DNA from: a virus
Virus record (IMG/VR): IMGVR_UViG_3300020190_000292
Span: 1-27,479 of that record
Direction: 5' to 3' (one strand)
Length of the DNA: 27,479 nt
Below are positions 3,996-27,479 of this stretch, one piece after another (position 1 is the first letter of the stretch; the number at the start of each line of letters is the position of its first letter). The notes under the pieces were generated by a model. The model ran no database searches. It saw only the letters and a list, made by a program, of their open reading frames with translations, and was not told the DNA's origin. Position numbers and translations under genes: made by a program.

Positions 3996-4005
3996 AACCA
4001 ACAAA
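3996..4005 (+). promoter_or_regulatory. Leader motif AACCAACAAA abutting the start codon
   Basis: AACCAACAAA runs into the ATG at 4005 and shares its last A. The same 10-mer precedes the starts at 6992 (twice) and 14113. No Shine-Dalgarno sequence is present. An A-rich, C-punctuated leader fits translation initiation in Bacteroidota. A second copy at 4013-4022 lies inside the first codons of the gene. Confidence 0.5.
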
Positions 4006-5286: not shown

Positions 5287-6903
5287 ATGGCAACTCCAGT
5301 TTTAAACAATGGTATCTTTCTACGGGATACAGCCTATGCGGCAAGTTCACACGTAGACTCTTACCACTTGGTTAACATGTTGAAGGATGCAGAACCAATG
5401 GATCTAGGTCCAGTGGACCTTTGGGCTATGGCTCAGAAGGTTGAAATGCCTCTTTACCAAATGTCTAGCTTTGGTGGTAAAAATGTAATTATGGTAGATA
5501 ATGCTCGTGGAGAGTACAGATGGCAGACTCCTGTATCTGTAGATCTTCCTTACATTATTGAAGATATTGAACCAGACAATGAGTTCAAAGGTGTAGATGG
5601 TGGTACTTTCCGTATCAAAATCAGCAAAAGAGAATTTGGTCATGGTGATATCATTACTTATGATAAGTATAATGGTGTTGAGATGTACATTACAAATGAA
5701 GATATCTTACCAATTGGTGATGGATTCATCTATACTGTACAACTTGTAAATAATGACAATTATAAATATCTTGAGAATAAGTATTTATCAAATGGTACTA
5801 AAGTATTCCGTAAAGGTTCTGCTAGAGGTGAGTATGGTGAAAGATTTTCTGACATCATCACTAATGCAGGTTTCCGTGAATTCTACAACTTTGTAGGTGG
5901 TGCTGAAGCTCACGTACATTATTCTATCTCATCACGTGCAGACTTGATGATTAAAGGTGGAATGAATGCAGATGGTACAGTTCCTGTAACTGAGATCTGG
6001 AGAACTTTTGATAAAACTATGGATCCTTCAATCACATCATTAGATGATATGATTAAGAAACTTGGTAAAGATAAAGTTAAAAGAGCATTTGATAATGGTG
6101 ATCTTTCTAGAACATTCTTAACTACAATGGAAGCTGCTCACTTGAGCAAAGTTGCTTCTGACATTGAGACTTACTTAATGTGGGGACATGGTGGTAGAGT
6201 GCGTCAAGATGGTCCAGATGATGTTAGATTATCTGTGGGTCTTTGGAAACAGTTAGATAACTCTTTCAAAAGAGTATATAACAAAAATAACTTTACACTT
6301 GATTTGTTCCGTGGAGAAATCTATAACTTCTTCAATGGTAAAGTTGAGTTCCAAGGTCCAGATCCAAAAAGATCTCTAGTAGTTCAAACTGGTATGGGTG
6401 GTATGCGTATGGTAAATGAAGCTATCAAAAGAGAAGCTATCTCTTCTGGTCTTCTTATCCAAGCTGCTGACATTGGTGCAATTACTGGTAAAGGTATGGA
6501 CTTGAACTTTGGGTTTGCTTATACTTCATATGTAATTCCATTCTTGGCAAATGTTAAGTTTGTTCTTAACCCAGCATTTGACAATGTTCATACAAATGAT
6601 ATTGAGAACCCAATCATTGATGGTTTCCCATTATCTTCTTACTCATTCATTATCTTTGATATCACTGATAATACTAATGATAATATTTACATGTTAAAAT
6701 TATCTTGGGATAATCAGTTGAAGTGGTGGTATCAAAATGGTACTATGGACTACATGGGAAGAACTCAAGGGTTCCAATCTTCTGGTCAGTTCAATGGATA
6801 CCGTGTAATGATGTCTCAGACAATGCCAGCTATCTGGGTTAAGGATCCAACTAAAGTCCTTAAGATTGTTATGAGAAACCCAATCACTGGTGGTTCATTC
6901 TAA
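5287..6903 (+). CDS. Major capsid protein (HK97-fold, crAss-like type)
   Basis: A 538-residue protein after the scaffold candidate and before a strong terminator. Length and position match the major capsid proteins of crAss-like phages, and the Gly/Asn/Asp-rich mixed alpha/beta sequence fits an HK97-fold shell protein. It opens MATPVLNNGIFLRDTAYAAS and contains a probable extended loop or arm region around residues 80-130 and a long helical stretch around residues 260-300. Codon choice differs from its neighbours: by hand count about 18 of 31 Phe codons are TTC, and AAC, ATC and CGT are frequent, whereas nearby genes strongly prefer TTT, AAT and AGA. That fits selection for very high expression. 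No signal peptide or transmembrane segment is visible. The start is the ATG after an AAATAAAA leader; no earlier start is in frame nearby. Confidence 0.85.
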   Translation: MATPVLNNGIFLRDTAYAASSHVDSYHLVNMLKDAEPMDLGPVDLWAMAQKVEMPLYQMSSFGGKNVIMVDNARGEYRWQTPVSVDLPYIIEDIEPDNEFKGVDGGTFRIKISKREFGHGDIITYDKYNGVEMYITNEDILPIGDGFIYTVQLVNNDNYKYLENKYLSNGTKVFRKGSARGEYGERFSDIITNAGFREFYNFVGGAEAHVHYSISSRADLMIKGGMNADGTVPVTEIWRTFDKTMDPSITSLDDMIKKLGKDKVKRAFDNGDLSRTFLTTMEAAHLSKVASDIETYLMWGHGGRVRQDGPDDVRLSVGLWKQLDNSFKRVYNKNNFTLDLFRGEIYNFFNGKVEFQGPDPKRSLVVQTGMGGMRMVNEAIKREAISSGLLIQAADIGAITGKGMDLNFGFAYTSYVIPFLANVKFVLNPAFDNVHTNDIENPIIDGFPLSSYSFIIFDITDNTNDNIYMLKLSWDNQLKWWYQNGTMDYMGRTQGFQSSGQFNGYRVMMSQTMPAIWVKDPTKVLKIVMRNPITGGSF

Positions 6904-6920
6904 TCCATCATATATAAAAT

Positions 6921-6954
6921 GGGGGTGGGTGCTAAGCAACTGCCCCCTTTTTTT
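6921..6954 (+). terminator. Strong intrinsic terminator after the capsid gene
   Basis: Inverted arms at 6921-6932 and 6936-6947 (GGGGGTGGGTGC / GCAACTGCCCCC) form a 12-bp stem with one mismatch, two G-T wobbles and a TAA loop, followed by seven T residues. It begins 18 bases after the capsid stop. The GC-rich stem stands out sharply from the AT-rich surroundings. Confidence 0.9.
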
Positions 6955-6965
6955 CTTAATTTAAT

Positions 6966-6989
6966 AACCAACAAATAAAAACCAACAAA
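6966..6989 (+). promoter_or_regulatory. Tandem AACCAACAAA leader motif
   Basis: Two copies of AACCAACAAA, at 6966-6975 and 6980-6989, start 14 bases apart just before the ATG at 6992. They follow the capsid terminator by 11 bases, with no promoter-like element between. This is probably a translation leader on a read-through transcript. Confidence 0.45.
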
Positions 6990-6991
6990 AC

Positions 6992-8008
6992 ATGGAAAAT
7001 TTCACAATGGTAGAAACTAATAAAGCTACCAACAAAAAAACTAAAATTGCAGTGCGTCCGTTCTTTGACAATACTATGTCAAACATGGGTTTAGAAAACT
7101 ATGGTCTATCTCTTTATGATGGTGTAAAACATCATGAACAATTAGCTTGTTTAGAAAACAATGGTATAGTAAGATATCTTACAGGACTTAATGAATTTGC
7201 TCCTGAAATTAAACTTTTACCTACAGAAGAAAAAGAAGCTAGAATAAAACAAATAAGAGAAGCTGTTGCTGAATTAGAAAAAGAACTAGCTGCTAATGTA
7301 CTAGAAATAGAGGATCCTCAATTTTGGAATAAAGTAAAAGTATTAAAGCCTGATAATGCAGAGTTCTGGAATAAGATTACTATTGCATGTGGTAATGAAC
7401 CTTTATATTTAGATACTAAAGATCCTTATGATAGAGTTAAGTTATTTGCTATAGAGGCCGGAGGATTTTCTATTGTAGCTAAAAGCTATGATGATGCTAG
7501 ATCTAAAGCAGTACCTCCTAAGTTTTATTTAGATAAAGAAGAAGAAACTGTAGTAGCAAGAACTGAATATAAGAAAATGCGTAACAAAGCACTTTCTGAA
7601 CTTCAGAAATTATTTGACAAAAACAGTACTAAGTTGTTCTACATTGCTAAAGTTGTAGATATTAACAGTACACAATATAGAAAATCTACACCATTAGACT
7701 CTATTTATGAAAATATGGATAGACATATTAATGGTGAAGGTGGGGAATCTAACAAAGAAAGAGCTGCAAAATCATTCATTGAAGCATCTAATTTTGACAT
7801 GGAAACATTAAAACTTAAATCAATTGTTAGAGATTCCGTTTTTTTTAAGTATATTATAAATAAGGCAGATGGATATATTTACCATGCTAAGACAAATAGC
7901 TTACTTGGTAGAAATGTATCTGATGTTGTTGAGTATTTAAAAAATCCTTTAAATGAAGATATTTTAAAAGATCTTAATGCAGCCTGTGAAAAGTATTGGA
8001 ACTCTTAA
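6992..8008 (+). CDS. Post-capsid conserved phage protein, function unknown
   Basis: A 338-residue protein immediately downstream of the capsid terminator. I do not recognise a domain. It has an N-terminal Thr/Lys-rich segment (residues 1-25), a charged helical stretch around residues 75-105 (EEKEARIKQIREAVAELEKE), two repeats of an FWNK pattern (DPQFWNKVKVL, NAEFWNKITIA, about residues 108-135), and a helical C-terminus. No Cys cluster, signal peptide or membrane segment is visible. Position between the capsid and small-gene modules suggests a head-associated, head-completion or auxiliary protein. Expression probably depends on read-through of the preceding terminator. Crassvirales usually carry an uncharacterised gene after the capsid gene, which this may match. 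Confidence 0.6.
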   Translation: MENFTMVETNKATNKKTKIAVRPFFDNTMSNMGLENYGLSLYDGVKHHEQLACLENNGIVRYLTGLNEFAPEIKLLPTEEKEARIKQIREAVAELEKELAANVLEIEDPQFWNKVKVLKPDNAEFWNKITIACGNEPLYLDTKDPYDRVKLFAIEAGGFSIVAKSYDDARSKAVPPKFYLDKEEETVVARTEYKKMRNKALSELQKLFDKNSTKLFYIAKVVDINSTQYRKSTPLDSIYENMDRHINGEGGESNKERAAKSFIEASNFDMETLKLKSIVRDSVFFKYIINKADGYIYHAKTNSLLGRNVSDVVEYLKNPLNEDILKDLNAACEKYWNS

Positions 8009-8019
8009 AAATAAATAAA

Positions 8020-8178
8020 ATGGATAAACCTAATAAAAAATCTAAAAAAGGAACAGCCGTTGTTAATTATGGTACTGAAGCTGGTAAACTGGCTGCATCA
8101 GTGGCCAAAGGAAAAATGAAAAAAGGTGGTGCTTCTAAAGTGAAGATGAAAAAAGGAGGTATGAAAAAATCTTGTTAA
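8020..8178 (+). CDS. Small Lys-rich protein with two MKKGG motifs
   Basis: A 52-residue protein, about 31 percent lysine, ending in KMKKGGASKVKMKKGGMKK then SC. The start is ATG 8020 after AAATAAA; an in-frame TTG at 7996 would overlap the previous gene and is not needed. The MKKGG motif recurs at nucleotide level (8116-8130, 8146-8160, 9767-9780, 9881-9894). The protein is strongly basic and probably unstructured in part, so DNA or RNA binding, or packaging with the genome, is possible. It is the first of nine tightly spaced small genes. No known enzyme family is recognised. Confidence 0.7.
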   Translation: MDKPNKKSKKGTAVVNYGTEAGKLAASVAKGKMKKGGASKVKMKKGGMKKSC

Positions 8179-8179
8179 G

Positions 8180-8518
8180 ATGCCAAAGGATTCTTGTTAT
8201 CATAGTGTAAAAGCGCGGTATGCCGTGTTCCCTTCAGCAAGGGCTTCTCAAGCTATTGCTAAATGTCGTAAAGGTAAAGGGCAAGTAAGGAAGACCAAAG
8301 AAGGTTCTGATCTTAAAAGATGGCAAGCAGAAAAATGGCAAGATACTAAAACAGGAAAAGCTTGTGGTGCCGGTGGTAAAAATGAATACTGCCGGCCTAC
8401 AAAAAGAGTATCAAAGGATACTCCTAAAACAAAGTATGAACTAACTCCTTCTAAACTAGCTGCTAAAAAAGCTGAGAAGTCTAGAGTAGGTATGGGAAGA
8501 AGGGTTAAAAAAGTATAG
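8180..8518 (+). CDS. Small basic Cys-containing phage protein (DUF5872-like)
   Basis: A 112-residue basic protein one base after the previous stop. It opens MPKDSCYHSVKARYAVFPSA and has Cys at 6, 29, 62 and 71, with a CYHxVKxRY, FPSAxAS, KCRK, then KACGAGG and YCRPTKRVS pattern. This resembles a small family found in marine phages and large viruses (I associate it with Pfam DUF5872, from memory). The four Cys and one His could bind a metal, but spacing is wide. The C-terminus is Lys/Arg-rich. The stop is TAG, followed 2 bases later by the next ATG. Molecular role unknown; its basic charge and cluster suggest nucleic-acid or virion association. Confidence 0.7.
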   Translation: MPKDSCYHSVKARYAVFPSARASQAIAKCRKGKGQVRKTKEGSDLKRWQAEKWQDTKTGKACGAGGKNEYCRPTKRVSKDTPKTKYELTPSKLAAKKAEKSRVGMGRRVKKV

Positions 8519-8520
8519 TA

Positions 8521-8757
8521 ATGGCAATTAAAAAAACAACAAAATCAACACCAGCTAAGAAATCTTCTTCAGTTGGTATTTCTATTTTAGGTGGAAACAA
8601 AGCAGACATGAGAAAATGGGAAATTGAATCTGCTATGTCTACATTACAAAGAGCTGCTGAGATTCAGAAGAATGCTAAGTTAATGGCAGATGTAAAAAAA
8701 CTAGCAGCAGAAAAAGCAAAAGAGTTTAATAATCTTGCCTCTGGCAAAAAAATATAA
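8521..8757 (+). CDS. Small helical basic protein, function unknown
   Basis: A 78-residue protein. Residues 1-20 are Lys/Thr/Ser-rich and probably disordered. Residues 25-75 form a strongly predicted amphipathic helix or helical hairpin (MRKWEIESAMSTLQRAAEIQ to the C-terminus), and the chain ends GKKI. I recall similar short WE-x-E-x-A-x-x-TL-x-x-A proteins from uncultured phages but no known function. It may pair as a coiled coil. It starts 2 bases after the previous TAG stop. Confidence 0.65.
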   Translation: MAIKKTTKSTPAKKSSSVGISILGGNKADMRKWEIESAMSTLQRAAEIQKNAKLMADVKKLAAEKAKEFNNLASGKKI

Positions 8758-8772
8758 GTAAATAAATATAGT

Positions 8773-8904
8773 ATGGCAACAAAAAAAGAAATTCCAGCTT
8801 ACATAGAAACAGCACCTGGAAAATTTGTATTGAATCCTGCTTATGTAAAAGCAGAAGAAAAAAAAGAAACAGCAAAAACTACTACTACTAAAACTAAGAA
8901 ATAG
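8773..8904 (+). CDS. Very small Lys/Thr-rich protein
   Basis: A 43-residue reading frame, ATG 8773 to TAG 8902-8904, between two clear genes and in register with the cluster. It opens MATKKEIPAYIETAPGKFVL and ends in a Lys, Glu and Thr-rich tail (TTTTKTKK). The start has an AATAAATATAGT leader of the kind seen elsewhere, and the stop overlaps the next GTG start by one base (TAGTG), which suggests translational coupling. The middle motif APGKFVLNPAYV looks structured rather than random. No family recognised. Confidence 0.6.
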   Translation: MATKKEIPAYIETAPGKFVLNPAYVKAEEKKETAKTTTTKTKK

Positions 8905-9179
8905 TGGCAAAGTCTCCAGCATGGCAAAGATCTGAAGGAAAGAATAAGACAGGTGGTCTTAATGCTAAAGGTGTTGCTTCCTATAGAAGAGAAAATCCAG
9001 GTAGTAAACTTAAGACAGCTGTAACTACTAAACCTTCTAAACTAGACCCAGATAGTAAATCTGCTAAAAGAAGAAAAAGTTTTTGTGCTAGGTCTGCAGG
9101 ACAAATGAAAATGTTTCCAAAAGCTGCAAAAGATCCAAATAGTAGATTAAGATTAGCAAGAAAAAAATGGAATTGTTAA
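8904..9179 (+). CDS. Small basic protein with EGKN..GGLNAKG motif (DUF6321-like), GTG start
   Basis: A 91-residue basic protein beginning at GTG 8904, overlapping the preceding TAG by one base. It carries SPAWQRSEGKNKTGGLNAKG followed by VASYRRENPGS and, at residues 56-62, KRRKSFCAR, then a C-terminal RLARKKWNC. This block is one I associate with the phage family Pfam DUF6321 (recalled, not searched). Cys at 61 and 91. The highly ordered motif argues for a conserved role, perhaps virion or DNA binding given the charge, but no activity is known to me. An out-of-frame ATG at 8921 does not compete. Confidence 0.7.
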   Translation: MAKSPAWQRSEGKNKTGGLNAKGVASYRRENPGSKLKTAVTTKPSKLDPDSKSAKRRKSFCARSAGQMKMFPKAAKDPNSRLRLARKKWNC

Positions 9180-9191
9180 TTTATATATAAA

Positions 9192-9584
9192 ATGAAAAAG
9201 ACTATAAAAAAAGTTGTAGCTAAAGCACCTGTTAAAAAGACAGTAGTTAAAAAGCCTATGATGAAAAAAGACGGTTTAATGAAAAAACCTTTGCGTAAAG
9301 CTCAATATGGTGATCAAGTAAAAGAGGGACCTCTTAGTGAAGAAGATACTAAAAGAGTAGATAAACTATATAATTTTTTTGTTGATACAGGAAATAGAAT
9401 TGGTAAAGGTTCAACACCTACAATTGAAGGCTATAGTTCTGTTCCACAAAGAATGAAAGAAGAGTCTGAAAAACAAATTAGATCTAGTAATACTTTTAAT
9501 ACAAGTAAGACTAACTTCAAAAAAGGTGGCACTATAAAATCTAAACCAACTAAAAAAACTGTTTTAAAATCTAAAAAGAAATAA
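9192..9584 (+). CDS. Lys-rich cluster protein with LRKAQYG and KKGG motifs
   Basis: A 130-residue protein. Residues 1-33 are a very basic leader (Lys, Val, Met, Pro). LRKAQYG follows at residues 34-40 (9291-9311). The central part is acidic and mixed (residues 40-95), and the tail carries FKKGGTIK and ends in KSKKK. The LRKAQYG block closely matches LKKAQDG at residues 28-34 of the 10080 gene, at about the same distance from the N-terminus, so these two share a leader architecture. Possible reading: a removable or targeting leader. No enzymatic motif is visible. Confidence 0.65.
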   Translation: MKKTIKKVVAKAPVKKTVVKKPMMKKDGLMKKPLRKAQYGDQVKEGPLSEEDTKRVDKLYNFFVDTGNRIGKGSTPTIEGYSSVPQRMKEESEKQIRSSNTFNTSKTNFKKGGTIKSKPTKKTVLKSKKK

Positions 9585-9586
9585 TT

Positions 9587-9910
9587 ATGAAAACAATGAA
9601 AACATGTAAAATGGGTTGTGGAAAAATGAAATCTGGCGGACCTATTAAGAAAGTAAAAAAGATGGCAATGGGTGGAATGAAATTAGCTGATAAAAATGCT
9701 AAAACATTTATTGCTGGTATGCCTAACTCTGGACCTACAGGACCAAATTACCAAGGTATTGATACTATGAAAAAAGGGGGTATTATGAAAAAGAAATCCG
9801 GAGGAACTCTTAAACCAGTTCCTGCAGATAAAGTGGGTTTATCTAAACTTCCTACTGCTGTAAGAAATCAAATGGGTTACATGAAAAAAGGTGGAGTTAA
9901 GAAAAAATAG
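9587..9910 (+). CDS. Lys/Gly-rich protein with repeated KKGG motifs
   Basis: A 107-residue protein starting 2 bases after the previous stop. Basic Gly-rich units recur: MKTCKMGCGKMKSGGPIKKV at the start, then MGGMKLADK, MKKGGIMKKKSGG and a C-terminal YMKKGGVKKK. A CKMGCGK pair at residues 7-11 could bind metal, but only two Cys are present. Between the basic blocks lie Pro/Gly-rich stretches (MPNSGPTGPNYQG). Probably flexible and nucleic-acid binding or virion-packaged; function unknown. Stop TAG. Confidence 0.65.
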   Translation: MKTMKTCKMGCGKMKSGGPIKKVKKMAMGGMKLADKNAKTFIAGMPNSGPTGPNYQGIDTMKKGGIMKKKSGGTLKPVPADKVGLSKLPTAVRNQMGYMKKGGVKKK

Positions 9911-9912
9911 TC

Positions 9913-10077
9913 ATGGCAACTAAAAAGAAGTCAGATAAAAACTGGATACAAAAGGCTACAGCCTCTATTAAACGTAGAGGTACTGCTGGAAAATGTACTC
10001 CTATAACTAAACCTGGTTGTACTGGTAAAGCTAAAACTTTAGCACTTACATTTAAAAAAATGGCTAAAAATAAATAA
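9913..10077 (+). CDS. Small WIQKA-type basic protein
   Basis: A 54-residue protein, 14 of them Lys, from ATG 9913 to TAA 10075-10077, 2 bases after the previous stop and 2 before the next gene. It has KNWIQKATASIKRRGTAGKC, then TPITKPGCTGKAKTLALTFK and KMAKNK. The pattern of a WIQKA opening, Cys at 28 and 36 and a basic terminal helix recurs in short proteins from phages of many hosts, as I remember it, but the role is undefined. It may have been missed because it is short. Confidence 0.65.
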   Translation: MATKKKSDKNWIQKATASIKRRGTAGKCTPITKPGCTGKAKTLALTFKKMAKNK

Positions 10078-10079
10078 TC

Positions 10080-10457
10080 ATGAAAAAAACTAATAAAGTT
10101 CACCCTATTACAGCATTTAGAAAAGCTAATGAAGCTAGACAAGCTGTAGTTAAAAAGTCATTGAAAAAAGCTCAAGATGGAATTGAGACAAATGATATGA
10201 TGATTAACAAACCAGGTTCTACAGGTGGTTATAAAAATACAGGTAATCCACTTTCATCAATTGCAGGAAGTCTGCGCCCTGATATAGATCTTTTACGGGA
10301 AAAGTCTAAAGAAGCAGTAAGAGCCAACTTAAGTAATGCATATAATGATGCAATAAAAAAATATGTAAATCCAGAAACTGAGGCAATGAATAAGCTGTAT
10401 CCAAATTATCAAATACCTTCTCAGAAAAAAGGTGGAGCTATAAAAAGAAAAAAATAA
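10080..10457 (+). CDS. Lys-rich cluster protein with LKKAQDG and KKGG motifs
   Basis: A 125-residue protein, last of the small cluster. A basic leader (residues 1-27) is followed by LKKAQDG (10161-10181, residues 28-34), a Gly/Thr/Asn-rich region, a helical charged stretch (about residues 65-115), and a C-terminal QKKGGAIKRKK. Leader plus KAQ block match the 9192 protein, and the C-terminal KKGG matches several cluster members and the last gene of the window. Function unknown; virion or DNA association is suggested by composition and context. Confidence 0.65.
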   Translation: MKKTNKVHPITAFRKANEARQAVVKKSLKKAQDGIETNDMMINKPGSTGGYKNTGNPLSSIAGSLRPDIDLLREKSKEAVRANLSNAYNDAIKKYVNPETEAMNKLYPNYQIPSQKKGGAIKRKK

Positions 10458-11161: not shown

Positions 11162-11680
11162 ATGGAAACAAAAACTAGATTATTAAAAAGAAATCCAGAG
11201 CCTACTAGAACAATTAGTAGACCAGAAGTTACTGTAACTCAACCTAAAGAAGAACCTGCTAAACCACAACCAACTCCTGATACAGGTGTAGGTGGTAGTT
11301 CATTAGATACTATGGTTGCAGCATGTGCTACAGAAATGATGAATGCTGCAATTAGTTTTCATAAATTACATTTAAAAATAAAAGGTGAAGGATCTTATGC
11401 TGCACATATTGCATTAGGTGGATTTTATGAAGGACTACACGGACATGCAGATACATTAGTTGAAGGATACCAGGGTGTATCTGAAAAATTACTTTCATAT
11501 AAAGATTCTCCAATTAGAACTTTAGATACAGTATCTGATGGTGTAGGATATTTAAGAGATTTATACAATAGCATTACCAAACTACAAGGAATGTTACCTT
11601 ATTCTGAAATAGTAAATAATCTAGACTTAGTAAAAGACTCAATTAATTCTACTAAGTACAAATTACTTTTCTTAAAATAA
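11162..11680 (+). CDS. Dps-like ferritin-fold protein (DUF5856-like)
   Basis: A 172-residue protein. Residues 1-45 are Pro/Thr/Glu-rich and probably disordered. Residues 50-172 look like a four-helix bundle of the Dps/ferritin type. The signature is FHKLHLKIKG at 66-75 (compare HWNVKG in Dps) and HADTLVEG at 95-102 (compare the Dps DxxAER helix). In E. coli Dps the ferroxidase ligands are H51, H63, D67, D78 and E82. At matching spacing this protein has H70, H82, Gly86 in place of the first Asp, D97 and E101, so four of five are kept. H67, H93 and H95 add further metal-ligand options. Similar viral proteins are grouped, as I recall, in Pfam DUF5856. Dps normally forms 12-mers that oxidise and store iron and can shield DNA. 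Its place inside the structural module suggests either a virion part or a late DNA/iron protein. Confidence 0.7.
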   Translation: METKTRLLKRNPEPTRTISRPEVTVTQPKEEPAKPQPTPDTGVGGSSLDTMVAACATEMMNAAISFHKLHLKIKGEGSYAAHIALGGFYEGLHGHADTLVEGYQGVSEKLLSYKDSPIRTLDTVSDGVGYLRDLYNSITKLQGMLPYSEIVNNLDLVKDSINSTKYKLLFLK

Positions 11681-11718
11681 TTTGCTTATTTAAAAAAGAT
11701 TTATTATATTATATTATG
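11681..11718 (+). promoter_or_regulatory. Candidate promoter before the 570-residue virion protein
   Basis: TTTG at 11681-11684 is followed 20 bases later by TATATTATATTATG (11705-11718), in a 62-base gap. This spacing fits a Bacteroidota-type -33/-7 pair (TTTG, TAnnTTTG), though the -7 match is imperfect. It sits 24 bases before the next ATG. Confidence 0.4.
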
Positions 11719-11742
11719 TTTATTAATTAAAAATTAGAAAAA

Positions 11743-13455
11743 ATGGCTTATTTTAATCATGCGTTTAGAAAAACGTTTTTAGCAACTGGTGTCTCTCAAT
11801 CTACATCAGTTACTTTATTAGACGGTTCAGTAGTTAATGCTCAAACCCAAGGAGGTGTATTAGAGACTAGTGGATTACCAACTTATGTACTTAATTCTTT
11901 ATCTGCAAGTGCAGAAGCAGATAATAGTACATATGAATCTGGTTATGTTGGAATCTTTAATTCAGGTTCACAACTATCAGCTAGTGATCAGGATCTAAAT
12001 AATTGTTGTAATGTATTTATTGCAGGTTCTGCAATATACAATAATGACAAAATTGGTCCTTTTGCAGGAGGTTATACTGAAACTAACAAGTCTAAAGTTA
12101 TTAATCCTAAATATGTATCAAGATTTTATTCTGTTGATGCATGTGAACCACAAAATGAAATAGTACACGTAGGTTCTACATATTATACATATGGTGCTGG
12201 TGCTACTGTTCCTGTAGGAGGAATAGCTAATGTTAGTTTTGCAGGTGGTCCAGCTACAGGTCTTGCAGCTAATCTTGTAAATGCGTTAATTCAACTTGAT
12301 GGTGGAACAGGAACTGGTGCAACTATTGTAGTTACTACAAATGGTTCAGGTCTAGTAACATCTTATAGTGTACTTTTAAATGGTACTGGTATTGGTAAAG
12401 GATATACTGTAGGTGATGTACTTACTATTCCTGGAGATACATCAGGTACTTTTGAAATTACAGTTACTGCTATTCAACCAACAGGATTTGATCCTATTAC
12501 AGGAGCTGGTGGTACTGCATGTTGTAAAGAATTTTTATGTGGTGAAACATATTCATTACGTTTAGATATTAAAGGTTCTCCTGCATTACGTTACTTAAAT
12601 CACAATGCTTACTTAACTGTAGATGCATATACAGGATGTTGTCCAGAAGGTTCAATTGCACCAGTTGCAGTTAACTCAACAGAAGTATTTATCAAATGGG
12701 CAGATGCTATTATTAATTCACCTATAGTAAATCCTTTTGTAAGAATTGTTGTACAAGATGAGGCTGGTGTTCTTTGGTATGCTCCAGGAACTTCTGCAGC
12801 AGATTTAGCACAATTAGGTGGTGATACTTGGGATAACTATCCTGCAGGAGTTGCTCACGTAGATGGTGCATGTGCAGGTTTAATTATTGCAGGTGCTTAT
12901 GTGGATACTAAATTTGGTGATTGTACATTCCAATTAACTGACTTCTATGAAAAAGAACCAGTTAAACTTTACTTATCTGAAGTAGACTACAATGGTGATC
13001 CATGTACATTTGATGGTATCTGTGTAGTTCATGAGTGTTTAGCAACTCAAGCTAATGGTTTAGGTGAGACTATGTTAAGAGATTTAATTCTTTCTGAGTC
13101 TTACAGACAAAACTTCTTGGCAACAGATCTACGTATCCGTGAGATTACTCAAGGAAACCAATTGGTAACTGCAATTAATAGATCAGCATTATATGATGCA
13201 TTGTATCTACAACATAATGTTCCAAGATTTAATAATCCATCAGGAGTGTTTGATAATGATCAGTACTTGCTACAACTTATTTTCCCGACTGGTTCTACTG
13301 GTTATAATTATGCAATAGATTTAATTAATGGATGGTTAAGTAATTGTGGTGTATGTCAATTAGAAGGATATGGTTGTGAAACATCTTGTGAAGTTCCTAT
13401 TACTTTTCCTCCATTACCACTTAAATCAAAACGTAAAGGAGACGTTAGATTCTAA
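11743..13455 (+). CDS. Large virion structural protein with Gly-rich beta insertion
   Basis: A 570-residue protein with its own candidate promoter upstream and a strong terminator downstream, a layout fitting an abundant virion component. It opens MAYFNHAFRKTFLATGVSQS, a start I recall from structural proteins of related uncultured phages. Residues about 146-262 form a Gly/Thr/Val-rich region with IGKGYTVGDVLTIPGD, a beta module seen as inserts in many marine phage virion proteins. Cys pairs (CC at about 86 and 257, CC in YTGCCPEG) and the C-terminal CGVCQLEGYGCETSC suggest disulphides or metal. The C-terminal part (residues 435-500) reads like a helical interaction region (LRDLILSESYRQNFLATDLR). 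It may be an auxiliary capsid, tail-tube or surface protein; I cannot decide which. Codon choice drifts towards TTC/AAC near the end. Confidence 0.65.
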   Translation: MAYFNHAFRKTFLATGVSQSTSVTLLDGSVVNAQTQGGVLETSGLPTYVLNSLSASAEADNSTYESGYVGIFNSGSQLSASDQDLNNCCNVFIAGSAIYNNDKIGPFAGGYTETNKSKVINPKYVSRFYSVDACEPQNEIVHVGSTYYTYGAGATVPVGGIANVSFAGGPATGLAANLVNALIQLDGGTGTGATIVVTTNGSGLVTSYSVLLNGTGIGKGYTVGDVLTIPGDTSGTFEITVTAIQPTGFDPITGAGGTACCKEFLCGETYSLRLDIKGSPALRYLNHNAYLTVDAYTGCCPEGSIAPVAVNSTEVFIKWADAIINSPIVNPFVRIVVQDEAGVLWYAPGTSAADLAQLGGDTWDNYPAGVAHVDGACAGLIIAGAYVDTKFGDCTFQLTDFYEKEPVKLYLSEVDYNGDPCTFDGICVVHECLATQANGLGETMLRDLILSESYRQNFLATDLRIREITQGNQLVTAINRSALYDALYLQHNVPRFNNPSGVFDNDQYLLQLIFPTGSTGYNYAIDLINGWLSNCGVCQLEGYGCETSCEVPITFPPLPLKSKRKGDVRF

Positions 13456-20773: not shown

Positions 20774-23700
20774 ATGGCAAAGAACATACAAAATAGTGCG
20801 CAGAATTTAACTAATACATTTACAAAAGGTCTTAATAAAGATTCTGATCCTTCATTTGTATCTGAAGGTATGTGGTTACATGCCCGGAATGCTGTAAACA
20901 ATACAGCAGAAGGAGACTTAGGTACATTATCAAATGAGAGTTCAAACTATCTTTGTGCAACAGCCGGATCAACAATGCCACCTACTGTAGTAAATAAATA
21001 CATTATAGGAGGAATACATTTATTCAGTGATACTTGGGTTATATATACAGCAGGTCATGATGTAAATGGTGTTACAGTAATGTCAGAGATTGGTCTTCTT
21101 GAAGAAAGTAAATGTACATATAGACCTATTGTACAAGATGCTTGTTTAGGTTTTGATAAAAGATTTTTAATATCCGGTTCTTCAAGAGAAAAAGAAGATT
21201 GTACTTGGCAAGTATATTGGGCAGATGGTTTAAATCCTGATAGATTTTTAAATGTTGGGGATCCTAAATTATGGCCAGATCCTGCAAACTATTTTTGGTC
21301 TGTGTCACAAAGTAACTATACTAATAGTGTAAACTTTTATACTAATTATAACAATACATCTGATACAATACTTTGGCCCGGAGTAACTTGGATACAAAAG
21401 TGTACACCAATAGATACTAATAATCCTTGTGAGTTTTGTGTAGATCAAAATAAATTAGATTGTGATAAAATAAGATTAGCAAGATTAATGAGTACACCTT
21501 GTCTTAAATTAAGTTTAGGTGTAACAGGAGGAACTTTAAGAAACGGTACTTACTTTGCAACAATAGCTTATAGTATAAAGGGTCAGAAAATAACAGATTA
21601 TTTTTCACAAAGTAATTATCAGTTTGTTTACACATTTGAAGATTTACAGGGTTCTTTAGATTTAGAAGTAAGTGCAGACTCAGAAAATTTTGATGAGTTT
21701 GAATTAGTAATAGTACAGTGTATTAATAATGGTACAGTAGCAAAAAGAATTGGTACATATTCTACTAATACAAGCAGAATTACTTTAGATCAAATTAAAG
21801 AAGATACTCTTACAGTTCCGTTAGAAGACATTCCTTTACAAACACCAGTATTTGAAAAGTCAGATCAGATTACTGAAGTAAACAATTACTTACTAAGAGT
21901 AGGACCTACATCTAAGTTTGATTTTAATTATCAACCCTTAGCAAACTTAATTAGATCCCGTTGGGCTTCAGTTGAATATCCTGCTAACTATTATGTAAAT
22001 GGTGGTAATAAAACTAGTTATTTAAGAGATGAAGTATATGCATTCTTTATACGTTGGGTATATGATACAGGTGATAAGTCTGCTTCTTATCATATCCCCG
22101 GGAGACCTCCTAAAAATTATACAATACCAGGAACTGCTAATACCTATCCTGAAGAGTCAACAAGTTATAATGGAAAAAACATCCTTTATTATGATTCAAC
22201 AGATCCTTTAAAAACAGAACAAGTATTTGAAGTATATAATACTGCTAGTACTTTATTACCTGTAAACATTCCGGGTACTGAAACAATAGGTGGTAAAATA
22301 GTTTTACCAGATGGAGGTATAGTAAATAGAGTGGGTGAAATGGGTTATTGGGAATCAACAGAAAACTATCCTGATAATCAAGCAGAAATTTGGAACCCAA
22401 GTGAACATTGTTGGACTGGACAAGCAGGTGCATCAAAAGAATATGACTTATGTGGTAAAAAAATTAGACACCATAAGTTTCCTGATAATACTACAGATCC
22501 ACATTTTACACCTAATGTAAATGCTACAGGCTCACAAGTAGATGTTCCTTCTATAAGAATATTAGGAGTATATTTTGAAAATATAATTTTTCCAAAAGAT
22601 AATGATGGTAATGATATACCAGGTATTGTAGGATATGAAATACTAAGAAGTTCTAGAGAAGGTAACAGAAGTGTTATTGCTAAAGGTATGATAAATAACT
22701 TTAGAACTTATGAAGACATCGGAGATTATAATACTACACAATCTTCTCTAAGAACAAGAGGTTTATATTTAAATCATCCATTTAACTGTATATATCCTCC
22801 ATATAATACTAATAACCCAGGTGATCATAATTATTTATATAATGATCCTTTTATTAGAATTCCTGATCCTAATGATCCAGACCCTCTAGATTCAGGAGGT
22901 AGTGTATTAAATCAAAGTATACCAGAAGATATTATTTCATTTCACTCTCCAGATACTACATTTAGAAATCCATTCTTATCAGCTACTGAATTTAAAACAT
23001 ATGGTTATATATCAGGAGTTTCAGATCAAAAATTTGTTGAACCTTCTAAACATCCTCAGTTTAAATTAATAAGTGATCAAGCATGGGCTACAGCCTTATT
23101 TGTAGGTTTTGGAGAAGCTATAGTATCTTTACTAGGTAAAAGAGTTTACAATCAACCTGGCGGAAGTTTTACTGCACAATATCAATTACCTGAAGTGGGA
23201 GGTAATACATTACCAATTGGTATACAAACTAACTTAGATGATGCTTTTTTATTTTATACACAATTACAGTTATATAATGCTCAAGAAGGTATTTATGATC
23301 TTTCAGGTGGTTTTTTATTAGATGCTTTTACAGGAACTAATGTAGAACAACAACTATTACAAAATTTTAATGAAAATGCTTTAGCTTTTGGTGGAAATTA
23401 TACAGCTCCTTGGTTATCTGTTGAGACTACGGCAAACTCATATTTACCAGCATACTTAGAAACAGGTTTTAGTGTATTAGGTGCTATAAATAAGTTTGCA
23501 TATTATTTTTCTGAAGGTGCTAATGTTACACTTGATGCTATATATGCTTTCTTACCATATAGACAATATGCACTTCAACAACAAGCTTATGGATTTTATG
23601 ATAGTTGGAGTATTACACAAACATTATCAGATAGTAATTTAAAAAGATTTAAAATTGGAGAGGCTTTTTATTTAAGAGATTCTTTACAAACCATGCCTTC

Positions 23701-26269
23701 TTATGCAAACAACAGTGTGCCTGGCACTTGGTATAGATATAAAATAAATAATCTTAAAAGATCTGACACAGTAGTTTTAAGAACTCTTACAGGTCCTAGA
23801 TATAATGTTAGTTATCCAAATGGTTTAAACAAAGGACCTGCATTTTTACAAAATGATGAATCATTAGTTACTGTTGGTCAGTTAGGTTATGAAACTACTC
23901 CTGATAGAGATTTTGGAAAAAATATTGCTAGCTATTATGGAGCTATAAAAGTTAGATTACAAAATCAGTATGGACAATTAGATTCCATAAAACAAATTGT
24001 AATCACACCTTGTGAACAAAAAATAAATTATACAGACCCTACAGATATTAATTACTTTGTACAAACAGGACCCTATCAATGTACTCCGGGAGTAAATAGT
24101 AATTATACTGTTAAGTCTTTAACTAAAACCCCTATATTTTTTGGTGGAGATACTTATATTAATAGGTATGCTGAAAAAAACACAATGTTCTTTTTTAATG
24201 ATTGGTTATATGATTTTCCAAATGGATTTGAGTATAATTATCTTTTAAGAAGAATGTTTATAAATCCTAGATTCTGGGTAAACTCTCAGAGATATGATAT
24301 TTCAGAAATGAGTCCAGCAAACTTCCTTTCACCTAGTTATCCTGGTGGAGGATTTAGACCAAGAAACTTTTATCAACTAGATCACAATAGTTATAACTAT
24401 CAAACAGATGCTGAAGGTAACTATCCTCCTGCTGTTGGTTTTGGTGTAAAGAATTCTTATTTCTATTTAGCTAATTCTTCTGTTAGAGATTTTTATGTAG
24501 AGAGTGATGTTCTTGTAGATTTTAGAGAAGCTGGTTCACAACAATTTGAAAAAGTATATAATCCATATAACTATACAGATTTACCTGTATTGTTTGATAT
24601 GAATCCTGTAAATATTACTCAAGGAGATTATTATGAATATGACTATTCTTTAAGTGTAAGTAAATTATATAATCAGTATTTTTCATCTGGTAATTTACAA
24701 TCTAGATATTATGATCCTTTTGTTTCTAAACTTTGTTATACATATTTTCCTGATAGAATTTATTATTCTTTACAACAAGTAGAAGAAGCATTTAAAGATA
24801 GTTGGTTTGTATATTTACCAAATAACTATAAGGAATTTAAATCACAAATATCTGGTGTAAAGTCAATAAATAAAAATGGTATATTAATTACTTTTAAAAA
24901 TGATAGCCCATTAATGTATCAAGGTGTAGATGTTCTTCAGACAGATCTTAATACAAAAATTACTATAGGTGATGGTGGTTTATTTTCACAACCACAACAA
25001 ACAGTATCAAATGCAGATAAACCATATGAATATGGATCATCTCAAAATAGATTGTCTGTAATAAATACTCCTGCTGGTTTGTACTATGTTTCTCAAAACC
25101 AAGCAAAGATATATCAGTATGGTGGTAACATGTTAAAAGAAATATCTCAGATAGGTTTAAAATGGTGGTTTACATTATTCTTACCATATAAGTTACTTGA
25201 AGATTTTCCTAATTACCCGTGGCAGGATAATCCTGTTGCTGGTATAGGAATACAATCTATCTATGATAATCAAAACTCTATTTTATATTTTGCTAAAAAA
25301 GATTATAAATTAAAACCTATAGAACAGAGACCTGTGGGTCCTGTAGAATATGTACCTTATGTTTCAACAGGAAAATATAAAGGTAGAGGTGATTACTTTA
25401 CAGTAGGTGGAAAAGGTAAATATTTAATTGGTGATCCTGCTTTATTTGAAAGTGCATCTTGGACAATAAGTTTTGACCCTAAAAATAATTTCTGGATAAG
25501 TTTTCATGACTGGCATCCAGATTTAACATTCCCTACAAAAACTACATTTTTAACTTCAAAAGGTAATACTTTATGGGCACATAATAATGTGTGTAATAGT
25601 TTCTGTAATTACTATGGAAGCCCTTACCCTTTTGAAATAGAACTACCAATTATTACAGGACAGAGTGTAACTACAATTAAATCTATAGAATATATATTAG
25701 AATGTTATAAGAGAAAAGCTGGTAGCTGTGTTGATCAGTTTCATGTACTAGATTATAATTTTGATAAAGCAGTAATATATAATTCAGAACAAGTATCCGG
25801 GTATTTAAATTTAAACATCTTCCCTAAAAATAATGTAACACTTAGTTTAGATTATCCTAAGTTTAACCCAATTATACCAACTATTATAGATGATACTATA
25901 GTAGGTTTACCAGGGTTTGATATATTATTCTCTAAAGAAGAAAACAAATACAGATTTAATCAGTTCTGGGATATAACAAAAGATAGAGGAGAGTTTCCTA
26001 TTGGTTCAGGTTACCCACCGCAAGGTCCATTAGTACCTGGTACTACACAACTTTTAGGAAATTATCCTAGTGAAAATATTTGGGTAACTAGAGCAGATGG
26101 TTATAGAAAAGAATTAAATTTAGCTAACTTAGATTTAACTAAACCAGAATTACAAAGAAAGAAGTTTAGACATTATTTAAATATACTCCATTTAAAAAGA
26201 GAAATTTCTAATGATGTGAATATGATAATTAAACTTACAAATAGTAAAAACCAAATATCACTTAGGTAA
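20774..26269 (+). CDS. Muzzle/stem-type large tail protein (crAss-like)
   Basis: A 1,831-residue protein, the largest here. The N-terminus LTNTFTKGLNKDSDPSFVSE followed by GMWLHARNAVNN (residues 12-43) is the start I recall for the crAss-like muzzle or tail-tubular protein, in which many Gly/Tyr/Asn-rich beta segments fold into the tail tube end and gatekeeper. The whole chain is rich in Tyr, Asn, Pro and Gly with few Lys/Arg helices. No signal peptide or transmembrane segment. A Cys pair-rich zone lies around residues 205-245 (CTPIDTNNPCEFCVDQNK). A hydrophobic Ala/Tyr/Leu-rich stretch (around residues 860-960) may be buried. The length is greater than I recall for the family, so domains have probably been inserted. 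Its stop overlaps the next ATG by one base. Confidence 0.75.
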   Translation: MAKNIQNSAQNLTNTFTKGLNKDSDPSFVSEGMWLHARNAVNNTAEGDLGTLSNESSNYLCATAGSTMPPTVVNKYIIGGIHLFSDTWVIYTAGHDVNGVTVMSEIGLLEESKCTYRPIVQDACLGFDKRFLISGSSREKEDCTWQVYWADGLNPDRFLNVGDPKLWPDPANYFWSVSQSNYTNSVNFYTNYNNTSDTILWPGVTWIQKCTPIDTNNPCEFCVDQNKLDCDKIRLARLMSTPCLKLSLGVTGGTLRNGTYFATIAYSIKGQKITDYFSQSNYQFVYTFEDLQGSLDLEVSADSENFDEFELVIVQCINNGTVAKRIGTYSTNTSRITLDQIKEDTLTVPLEDIPLQTPVFEKSDQITEVNNYLLRVGPTSKFDFNYQPLANLIRSRWASVEYPANYYVNGGNKTSYLRDEVYAFFIRWVYDTGDKSASYHIPGRPPKNYTIPGTANTYPEESTSYNGKNILYYDSTDPLKTEQVFEVYNTASTLLPVNIPGTETIGGKIVLPDGGIVNRVGEMGYWESTENYPDNQAEIWNPSEHCWTGQAGASKEYDLCGKKIRHHKFPDNTTDPHFTPNVNATGSQVDVPSIRILGVYFENIIFPKDNDGNDIPGIVGYEILRSSREGNRSVIAKGMINNFRTYEDIGDYNTTQSSLRTRGLYLNHPFNCIYPPYNTNNPGDHNYLYNDPFIRIPDPNDPDPLDSGGSVLNQSIPEDIISFHSPDTTFRNPFLSATEFKTYGYISGVSDQKFVEPSKHPQFKLISDQAWATALFVGFGEAIVSLLGKRVYNQPGGSFTAQYQLPEVGGNTLPIGIQTNLDDAFLFYTQLQLYNAQEGIYDLSGGFLLDAFTGTNVEQQLLQNFNENALAFGGNYTAPWLSVETTANSYLPAYLETGFSVLGAINKFAYYFSEGANVTLDAIYAFLPYRQYALQQQAYGFYDSWSITQTLSDSNLKRFKIGEAFYLRDSLQTMPSYANNSVPGTWYRYKINNLKRSDTVVLRTLTGPRYNVSYPNGLNKGPAFLQNDESLVTVGQLGYETTPDRDFGKNIASYYGAIKVRLQNQYGQLDSIKQIVITPCEQKINYTDPTDINYFVQTGPYQCTPGVNSNYTVKSLTKTPIFFGGDTYINRYAEKNTMFFFNDWLYDFPNGFEYNYLLRRMFINPRFWVNSQRYDISEMSPANFLSPSYPGGGFRPRNFYQLDHNSYNYQTDAEGNYPPAVGFGVKNSYFYLANSSVRDFYVESDVLVDFREAGSQQFEKVYNPYNYTDLPVLFDMNPVNITQGDYYEYDYSLSVSKLYNQYFSSGNLQSRYYDPFVSKLCYTYFPDRIYYSLQQVEEAFKDSWFVYLPNNYKEFKSQISGVKSINKNGILITFKNDSPLMYQGVDVLQTDLNTKITIGDGGLFSQPQQTVSNADKPYEYGSSQNRLSVINTPAGLYYVSQNQAKIYQYGGNMLKEISQIGLKWWFTLFLPYKLLEDFPNYPWQDNPVAGIGIQSIYDNQNSILYFAKKDYKLKPIEQRPVGPVEYVPYVSTGKYKGRGDYFTVGGKGKYLIGDPALFESASWTISFDPKNNFWISFHDWHPDLTFPTKTTFLTSKGNTLWAHNNVCNSFCNYYGSPYPFEIELPIITGQSVTTIKSIEYILECYKRKAGSCVDQFHVLDYNFDKAVIYNSEQVSGYLNLNIFPKNNVTLSLDYPKFNPIIPTIIDDTIVGLPGFDILFSKEENKYRFNQFWDITKDRGEFPIGSGYPPQGPLVPGTTQLLGNYPSENIWVTRADGYRKELNLANLDLTKPELQRKKFRHYLNILHLKREISNDVNMIIKLTNSKNQISLR

Positions 26270-27479
26270 TGAGTTATAATAAAAAAGCCTTATCTAAAGC
26301 AAAATTAGATTTAGATAAATACAAGAAACCTAATCCGTATAAAAAAGATATTATTTATACTGAACAAGGTCAATGGAAATTCCCGGGTCAAAAAACTAGA
26401 ATACCTTCTAGTGATATTACTATGCAAGGAGTACCTTATCCTGTATTTGCACAACCTAATATTGGTAAACCACAAATGATGTATCCTGGACAAGAATATA
26501 ATTTTCCAGGAGCAGACTATGTAGATGAAACTCCTATGGTAAAAAAAGGAGGTTTAGTACGAATGCCTAAACCAACTAAAAAGGGTCTAGCCTCTAAAAA
26601 ATATTCAAGAAGTCTTTCTGCTACAAATAAACTGTTTACAGAAAACCCTCTATTTAAAAAACCAAAATCTAAAAAAAGAAAAGTATTTGATCCTAATGCT
26701 AAGTATTTTGAATCAGGTGGTGAATCAGATAATAATCCTCCTAAATCTATAGTAGCAAAACCATCATGGTATCAAGAGCCTGTTGTTAATCCTGCTGCTT
26801 ATGTAAGTGGTTTTAGAGGAGGCAATCCTAATATGTATAAGTATGGATTCTTAACTACAGATCAAGGAAACATTGTTGGAGGAGGAGGTTTAGGGTTTCC
26901 TAAGTCAGGAATAGAGTTAAGTGGATTAGGTGTTGTTCCAACATCACCTCTTGAAAGAGAATATTTTAAAGGAGCATATAATGCTAAAATATCTAAAGAT
27001 ATAAATAGAAATTTAAACTTAGGTTTAGGAGTTGATACTAGTATTACAGGATATCCAGGAGAAACTGGTTTTGTTAGAGACCCAATAAAATTTCAACCTA
27101 ATGTAAATTTAAAATATAACTTTCAACCAGGTGGTTCTGTAGATATAGATCTAACAGAAGATGATATTGCTAAATATGTTAATGGTGGATATATAGTAGA
27201 AGAACTACCTGAAATGCAACCTGGTGGACCATGGAAACCAGGGACTGTAGTAAGACCTACATTAAGTGCATCTGACTTGGCTACCGTTAAAAAAGAAGTA
27301 GCTAAAGCAAAACCAGTTGCTGTTTCAAAACCAGTAGCAAAAAAACAATCAACATCTAGTTTTGCAGATAGGGCTGCTCAAGTAAATAAAGAAAATAAAT
27401 TAAAAGGTATTGAAAACATATCAGTAGATGAAGCAACTTGGAATGCTAATAGAGACCGTCAAAATAAAGAACACTTATC
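26269..27479 (+). CDS. Large virion/cargo-type protein, N-terminal part (runs off the window)
   Basis: An open frame of 403 codons from ATG 26269 to the end, overlapping the muzzle stop by one base. It starts MSYNKKALSKAKLDLDKYKK, then has QGQWKFPGQKTRIPSSDITM and GVPYPVF, an opening I recall from long virion proteins placed after the muzzle gene. A KKGG block follows (26542-26553), a Lys-rich region, a Gly-rich middle, then DIAKYVNGGYIVEELPEMQP and GG at about residues 300-320. Pro/Lys/Ala low-complexity sequence follows to the edge. The position after the muzzle is that of cargo or ejected proteins in crAss-like phages. The shared KKGG and LPxMQPGG signals link it to the small cluster at 8020-10457. 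Function is inferred. Confidence 0.65.
   Translation, partial: MSYNKKALSKAKLDLDKYKKPNPYKKDIIYTEQGQWKFPGQKTRIPSSDITMQGVPYPVFAQPNIGKPQMMYPGQEYNFPGADYVDETPMVKKGGLVRMPKPTKKGLASKKYSRSLSATNKLFTENPLFKKPKSKKRKVFDPNAKYFESGGESDNNPPKSIVAKPSWYQEPVVNPAAYVSGFRGGNPNMYKYGFLTTDQGNIVGGGGLGFPKSGIELSGLGVVPTSPLEREYFKGAYNAKISKDINRNLNLGLGVDTSITGYPGETGFVRDPIKFQPNVNLKYNFQPGGSVDIDLTEDDIAKYVNGGYIVEELPEMQPGGPWKPGTVVRPTLSASDLATVKKEVAKAKPVAVSKPVAKKQSTSSFADRAAQVNKENKLKGIENISVDEATWNANRDRQNKEHL

Follow-up and report, generated by a model that had tools for sequence, protein, structure and literature searches.

What are the small basic genes that lie between the capsid and neck genes of a crassvirus-like phage, and why do they repeat a short peptide that returns in a large gene behind the muzzle gene? 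We addressed this question in IMG/VR virus record IMGVR_UViG_3300020190_000292, a fragmentary record of 27,479 bases (the whole stretch is called the window here) that covers the head and tail module of a crassvirus-type phage. Nine open reading frames (ORFs; 8020-10457) stand between two genes that we call ‘aux’ and ‘ring’ (Table 1). An earlier note, made from the sequence alone, had described them as tightly packed, small and mostly Lys-rich, and they are: gaps are -1 to 15 bases, Lys content is 16-31% and net charge is +5 to +24. The note went on to suggest that the proteins are packaged together with the genome through a shared signal. On balance, we favour the reading that this cassette encodes hypervariable, accessory internal head proteins comparable to the internal proteins of phage T4, with the repeated motif acting as a docking peptide.

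The tetrapeptide KKGG occurs six times in four of the nine cassette genes (those starting at 8020, 9192, 9587 and 10080), against 0.36 copies expected from shuffled sequences, and none of 5000 shuffles reached six. One further copy is found at 26542 in gene A, which directly follows the muzzle gene, and there is none in the 14 other window genes tested (incomplete terminase excluded). These are the five genes that the earlier note had listed, and the repeated DNA pattern that it reported, ATGAAAAAAGGNGG, is present in exactly four copies, all forward, with none for the reversed control. Its title, by which all nine proteins share KKGG and KAQ, was overstated: KAQ is found in the cassette only in the 9192 and 10080 genes, both of which also bear KKGG. 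Chance arising from a composition rich in Lys and Gly is ruled out by the shuffles and by reversed motifs. A Shine-Dalgarno-like role of the underlying DNA was also rejected, as the first Gly codon in cassette genes is GGT in 116 of 134 cases and GGA in 10, and AGGAGG is not kept.

The cassette was followed through two sets of relatives. The first comprises 81 loci, namely the window and its best 80 relatives by a capsid scan (capsids 90-100% identical); 46 hold both flanks in order, and the 35 with a missing or misordered flank were left out of the cassette counts. A cassette of 1.4-4.9 kb with 5-11 genes lies between the flanks in 46/46 ordered loci. Its content turns over rapidly, the 346 genes falling into 99 clusters with 67 singletons, and its charge is nearly uniform in sign: 341 of the 346 proteins are net positive, with 19% Lys. 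The second, more divergent set consists of 76 new loci from the best 80 matches of a capsid 76% identical to that of the window. Capsid, aux and ring genes occur in order in 52 of them (24 were left out of the cassette counts), and basic genes are found in the capsid-aux interval, the aux-ring interval or both in 21/52; the remaining 31 have no basic cassette at either site. Loci were also recovered with the capsid of Leptolyngbya phage Lbo-JY46; in 8/8 of these (seven distinct loci, since two are identical in the stretch examined; genes named by order and size), the pair of genes that follows the capsid gene abuts with nothing in between, and in Lbo-JY46 itself this pair matches the aux and ring profiles. 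The cassette is accessory, because its site is empty in the Lbo-like loci and 31/52 divergent relatives have none; an obligate cassette is ruled out by the same loci.

GG contexts in the cassettes favour K at position -4, M, Y or F at -3, K or Q at -2, S or T at +1, and V, T or I at +2, and KAQxG contexts align with them (e.g. SLPKAQTGNTVG). From this alignment, we take KKGG and KAQ to be variants of a single element, approximately K-[MYFA]-[KQ]-x-G-G (or KAQxG). In nine long relatives (overlapping pieces merged, 1004 genes), [MYFA][KQ]xGG occurs 49 times in the cassettes (1.9 expected; reversed 5) and 76 times in genes A-C, which extend from the muzzle gene to gene D (6.8 expected; reversed 1). 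It is at background between ring and muzzle (3 against 3.0 expected), among packaging and head genes (5 against 3.7) and in other genes (2 against 5.1). The earlier note had named an equal frequency in unrelated Lys-rich proteins as grounds for abandoning its idea. Such parity was not found, and the contrast is not absolute: 7,756 cassette residues of the nine relatives contain 22 KKGG and 37 K-form motifs, against one and four, respectively, in 48 other Lys-rich proteins (4,457 residues).

Held-out data matter here because the cassette form of the motif was derived partly on the same nine genomes and the relaxed form was picked after inspecting genes A-C. Among 84 new cassette proteins of the second set, there are 13 K-form motifs against 1.1 expected (maximum of 200 shuffles 5; reversed 0) and 12 C-terminal tags against 2.1 expected (highest shuffle 8). 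In genes A-C of held-out genomes, the GG form was found 28 times against 2.5 in four genomes with a cassette and 36 times against 3.3 in five without (in G020 and G021, gene D was not found and these counts extend to the end of the stretch); across the nine, it was absent from the muzzle gene (1.2 expected) and from genes D and E (2.0 expected). The motif behind the muzzle is thus independent of the cassette, since A-C genes of cassette-less genomes keep it. The K-form is found in A-C 10 times in 9,310 residues of the four divergent genomes with a cassette and three times in 15,044 residues of the five without, a weak link that we do not claim. A wider expression ([AMYF]QxG, second Gly optional) was rejected: it gave 47 against 15.0 and 44 against 17.4 in held-out A-C, about as far above chance as in gp45-47 of phage crAss001 (7 against 3.4), and because it separates so poorly we relied on the GG form.

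Within proteins, the motif has three placements: at the joints between interchangeable mini-domains, at the end of a leader that precedes differing bodies and, as KKGGSVKxKKK, in a C-terminal tag. The leader, of 32-41 amino acids and ending in KAQ, was found in 12 distinct cassette proteins at a median identity of 55%, part of which is due to selection with a loose leader pattern; the bodies behind it have a median identity of 25% (22% when shuffled), with 50 of 66 pairs under 30%. A broader listing gives 35 distinct proteins with AQxG within the first 80 residues, and several A-C proteins begin with a KVRIxKLPQAKTG-like sequence. For the joints, seven mini-domain patterns were considered where they lie inside a longer protein, and GG was sought in an 11-residue interval around the start of each, with random stretches of the same proteins as expectation. 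GG was present at 15/15 DUF6321 joints (2.6 expected), 16/18 WIQ (2.7), 10/10 KPVP (3.6; no separate copy in these sets) and 7/9 FAALAPP joints (1.8). AQQAAIA had it at 1/2, RGLWDNI has no internal copy, and DIMVNH had it at 6/6, where GG is possibly part of the domain.

A KKGG-like element lies within 15 residues of the C-terminus in 57 of 317 distinct proteins (7.4 when shuffled), and in the nine long relatives a loose tag is found on 11/61 cassette genes against 1/956 other genes. The loose tag is present in 31 of the 99 clusters; independence of the tagged bodies is not upheld, because removal of the last 14 residues still leaves 35 of 51 tagged proteins in a single group by loose similarity. 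The exact DNA pattern of the tag is narrower than the protein tag, as 0/10 divergent long records have it. Single small genes with the motif or the tag also occur away from the cassette, about 9.1-9.7 kb upstream of the capsid gene in relatives G003 (offset -9431), G005 and G010, and outside the cassette in L155, L159, L167, L172 and L197. A 101-amino-acid tagged protein with the N-terminus MKDSKNQ is found repeatedly on stretches that carry terminase or portal genes of the window clade.

The capsid protein, two ring proteins and the muzzle protein exceed the Pfam cut-offs for crassvirus families PF23898, PF25702, PF24228 and PF25731, and by these sequence matches the phage is a member of Crassvirales, a relative of the gut crAss phages; this kinship would suggest an aquatic Bacteroidota host. 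The ring protein at the right border of the cassette matches by profile phi4:1 gp062, which is verified by mass spectrometry (MS), and its head/neck label rests on that kinship; the muzzle protein matches phi4:1 gp042, also detected by MS. Like the described cargo genes of crAss001 (gp45-gp47, gp49 and gp50; PMC10172136), genes A-E stand right behind the muzzle gene, and gene E is homologous to gp47 (2.6e-24). Profiles of genes A-D found no match in the reference ORFs, crAss001 gp45-gp46 included; from position and content, we infer that they are cargo genes in the place of gp45-gp46. Their A-C products have only 6-11% Lys. As with phage polyvalent proteins, which are thought likely to be packaged (PMC5512222), some gene A products of relatives hold effector-like domains: ART-PolyVal above the cut-off in two of six, SET in two of six, and a lysozyme domain just below the cut-off in one of six. 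SET is N-terminal in gene A of G008 (L114:1250-5590) and G005 (L125:339-3065), the latter match being below the cut-off. The incomplete gene A of the window has no Pfam match. Several gene A, A’ and B proteins have another ending, such as LTPKQIKEYIKAGYIIEDI or LAEGGEIEYL, with internal copies like DGGYVVEELPEMQPGG, which is possibly a second terminal tag. In G010, one protein matches Collagen repeats (2.6e-43).

Proteins with two of the cassette domains are found in virions of other phages. In the S-CREM2 virion proteome (PMC10665884), ORF137 (108049-109521) was listed with four unique peptides and 4.1% coverage and ORF160 (128342-129235) with seven peptides and 13.1%; the former spans a DUF6321 match at 109273-109518 and the latter a DUF5872 match at 129104-129190. 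Virion proteins of S-SCSM1 are described as identified by MS (PMC9602691); gp029 of this phage, annotated ‘virion protein’, spans a DUF5872 match, and the DUF6321 model has a structural match in an S-SCSM1 virion protein of 517 amino acids, equal in length to gp029. In these cyanophages the domains belong to large virion proteins, in contrast to the separate small genes of the window. DUF6321 is also present in the head-gene surroundings of unrelated phages: in DSL-LC04 it stands between the cement and adaptor genes, and in pelagiphage HTVC023P it is three genes behind that for the capsid.

When IMG/VR was scanned for exact copies of the C-terminal tag followed by a stop codon, at least 119 stretches were recovered. 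Among the matches listed, 47 stretches carry a homologue of a window gene and 72 do not, and 7 of 120 tagged ORFs exceed 500 amino acids; the number of other phages is uncertain, because 13 of the 72 carry a tagged protein matching one in the 47 and many stretches are short. Gene maps were inspected for six stretches (L169, L190, L178, L233, L175 and L243). On L169, a tagged gene with RGGGIALRGMG repeats and a relative of DUF6321 (68% identical to that of the window) accompany terminase phrog_38 and portal phrog_1216 (features at 11285-12775, 7903-10362, 6879-7262 and 5656-5994); on L190, the tagged gene and the DUF6321 relative accompany major head protein phrog_371. The window genes for terminase, portal and capsid fall in PHROGs 6681, 6547 and 11589, so the C-terminal tag occurs in two contigs with terminase, portal or capsid families unlike those of the window. 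L178 and L233 are alike by gene order only, L175 has DUF6321, DUF5872 and tagged genes adjacent to each other, and the L243 map held nothing comparable.

Codon evolution fits the cassette ORFs being real genes. Median ratios of nonsynonymous to synonymous substitution (dN/dS) are 0.13 (DUF5872), 0.21 (9913 family), 0.30 (8521 family) and 0.31 (DUF6321); evolution is faster in the tagged families 9587 (0.77) and 10080 (0.71). The two Pfam memberships had been overlooked in the earlier note. Four Cys are invariant in an alignment of 22 DUF5872 sequences, the structure model of which was too poor for use (predicted local distance difference test, pLDDT, 57). The DUF6321 model is moderate (pLDDT 71); it matched no PDB fold, and its viral structural matches are mostly DUF6321 proteins. 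In relatives, DUF6321 is often fused behind KMKxGG. The end of the 9587 protein resembles, by eye, a protein of 37-41 amino acids on other contigs; tblastn searches of annotated phages with the 9587 protein and a 39-amino-acid tagged protein gave no match.

Table 1. Features of the window (positions in window coordinates).
Feature	Position	Strand	Remarks
Major capsid protein	5287..6903	+	Crass_capsid PF23898
‘aux’, 338 amino acids	6992..8008	+	Left cassette border; named by position only
52-amino-acid basic protein	8020..8178	+	KMKKGG twice (8113, 8143), KKGG at 8119 and 8149; C-terminal KKGGMKKSC
112-amino-acid DUF5872 protein (PF19197)	8180..8518	+	Without motif; 52 bits (Pfam cut-off 27.5)
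78-amino-acid basic protein	8521..8757	+	Without motif; family present in 23/46 cassettes
43-amino-acid basic protein	8773..8904	+	Without motif
91-amino-acid DUF6321 protein (PF19846)	8904..9179	+	GTG start; without motif in the window; 63 bits (cut-off 28.5)
130-amino-acid basic protein	9192..9584	+	KAQYG (9297), KKGGTIK (9519)
107-amino-acid basic protein	9587..9910	+	KMKSGG (9623), KKGG (9770, 9884); C-terminal KLPTAVRNQMGYMKKGGVKKK
54-amino-acid WIQKA-type basic protein	9913..10077	+	In relatives, fused behind GG element
125-amino-acid protein, own body	10080..10457	+	Leader ending SLKKAQ-DG (10167); C-terminal KKGGAIKRKK (10425)
‘ring’, 232 amino acids	10461..11159	+	Right cassette border; PHROG head and packaging, virion structural protein
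Muzzle protein	20774..26269	+	crAss_MUZ PF25731
Gene A start, first gene behind muzzle	26269..27477	+	Incomplete at window end; KKGG at 26542

We propose that, late in infection, the small basic proteins and the large proteins encoded behind the muzzle gene would be gathered into the assembling head. The cassette proteins are probably packaged in the window phage. That the motif serves them as a common docking peptide, whether it ends a leader, links mini-domains or lies close to the C-terminus, is a suggestion to which we give slightly less than even credence. Its partner would perhaps be the acidic 4005-5258 protein, whose candidacy as a scaffold comes from position and charge only, or else the inner wall of the capsid. 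The cassette and cargo proteins would then leave together with the genome, to act at an early stage in the host cell or to assist in holding the DNA. From the comparisons made, T4 would be the closest working parallel. Its internal proteins IPI-III are described as small basic head proteins with capsid targeting sequences, in a packaged set that includes the ADP-ribosyltransferase Alt (PMC9026906). As described there, small basic proteins with divergent bodies, a common N-terminal peptide and variation between relatives are points in common. The likeness is one of design only; the contrast of 55% in leaders and 25% in bodies comes from 12 proteins chosen by a loose leader pattern. Unlike the T4 peptides as described, the cassette leader is longer (32-41 compared with 10-19 amino acids) and extra C-terminal and internal copies exist; the genes also form one cassette, the phages belong to different orders, and no prohead protease is among the 25 of 26 G010 families listed. 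The window also differs from crAss001, where no basic cassette separates the capsid and ring genes, and from the polyvalent proteins, described in the parts of PMC5512222 drawn on here without a common short packaging peptide or a small-protein cassette.

Several observations weigh against this proposal. Five of the nine window proteins, including those with DUF5872 and DUF6321, have neither KKGG nor KAQ. The cassette is missing from the 31 divergent relatives mentioned above, and in the aux-ring interval alone motif proteins are found in 4/52 loci and tags in 8/52. The C-terminal tag is on 0/52 genes of the 20-40 kb region behind the muzzle gene, so only the internal and leader forms are common to the cassette and A-C. 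From gene D to the RNA polymerase region, [MYFA][KQ]xGG is at background (7 against 5.8 expected), and gene E has the motif only at background although its crAss001 homologue gp47 is packaged. The GG form is found once in crAss001 gp45-47 (0.6 expected) and not at all in the MS-verified phi14:2 proteins gp064-067. The MS peptides come from larger proteins at 4-13% coverage and possibly lie outside the common domain. The best-scoring capsid match among 50,697 phage records has an identity of 28.3%. A general crassvirus cargo signal is ruled out by crAss001, phi14:2, phi4:1 (six proteins counted) and the genes from D to the RNA polymerase. The S-CREM2 authors also state that some detected proteins may be carry-over, a remark made of regulatory proteins (PMC10665884). 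The co-packaging idea of the earlier note therefore stands in part: a signal common to small head-module proteins and likely cargo genes is real and specific, and proteins with two of the domains are present in cyanophage virions, but KKGG alone cannot bring in all nine proteins because five lack it.

Among the alternatives, it is unlikely that the cassette encodes DNA-condensing virion proteins, with Lys/Gly segments as DNA-binding tails and the motif as a by-product of composition. The nearly uniform positive charge and the Lys content of the cassette proteins are consistent with such a role, and the gene behind the neck gene (11162-11680; PHROG 858, labelled starvation-inducible transcriptional regulator; Pfam DUF5856) hints, through that label, at a Dps-like protein in the virion module. 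However, the motif is far above composition-preserving shuffles, it is ordered, as the forward and reversed counts in both cassettes and A-C indicate, and it marks A-C proteins of low Lys content; nor did the DUF6321 model match a PDB fold.

It is rather unlikely that the GG element is a cleavage site at which a virion protease, cutting after GG (or KAQ|xG), frees leaders and mini-domains as in adenovirus. The position of the element at module joints, at the end of the constant leader and near C-termini would suit this. Adenovirus core proteins, which are basic, have Gly-Gly elements and are described as packaged and processed, offer a likeness, as the adenovirus protease cuts (M/I/L)XGG|X or (M/I/L)XGX|G, with pVII and further precursors as its substrates (PMC4246237). 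The motif register differs from the adenovirus site as described there, the hydrophobic residue being one position further from GG (M/Y/F at -3, not -2), and the adenovirus-type pairing of site and matching protease was not found among the contexts and families compared. A Pfam scan of 64 of the 66 G010 ORFs of at least 130 amino acids gave 26 families, with no Gly-Gly or prohead protease among the 25 listed; two metallopeptidase-like families, PhageMetallopep and DUF2201_N, were found. A cut at the C-terminal tag would take off only about 7-10 residues.

We consider it quite unlikely that the element is a mere flexible linker spread by domain shuffling without a binding partner. It is Gly-rich, it is placed between modules, and its spread by recombination is plausible, yet there are residue preferences at -4, -3, -2, +1 and +2 around GG, the C-terminal form has a conserved end, and other large genes of the same genomes are at background. 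It is improbable that the cassette encodes host-takeover or lysis-time proteins that are produced during infection without ever being packaged: hypervariable small genes are typical of host-directed functions and the site is empty in Lbo-like loci and many divergent relatives, but the head-block position, the motif held in common with the genes behind the muzzle, and the detection by MS of homologous-domain proteins in two cyanophages argue against this.

Our search, confined to the open PubMed Central literature, found no report of the motif or the cassette among the papers listed. The sections of PMC10172136 and PMC10136315 drawn on here give no explanation of how crass-type phages choose their head proteins, although these phages carry much protein. 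A bolder idea, which we regard as doubtful, is that the C-terminal KKGG-x-[IV]-K-x-KK and the internal and leader forms make up one cargo-loading code for basic head-module proteins and large ejected proteins in unrelated aquatic tailed phages; if this were true, any protein given the tag would be loaded into the head. A short peptide that marks both the basic set and the genes behind the muzzle would allow packaged proteins to be predicted from sequence alone and would make the selection of head cargo testable by reporter fusion. It would also suggest that aquatic phages have a reservoir of mini-proteins that are injected and possibly serve anti-defence.

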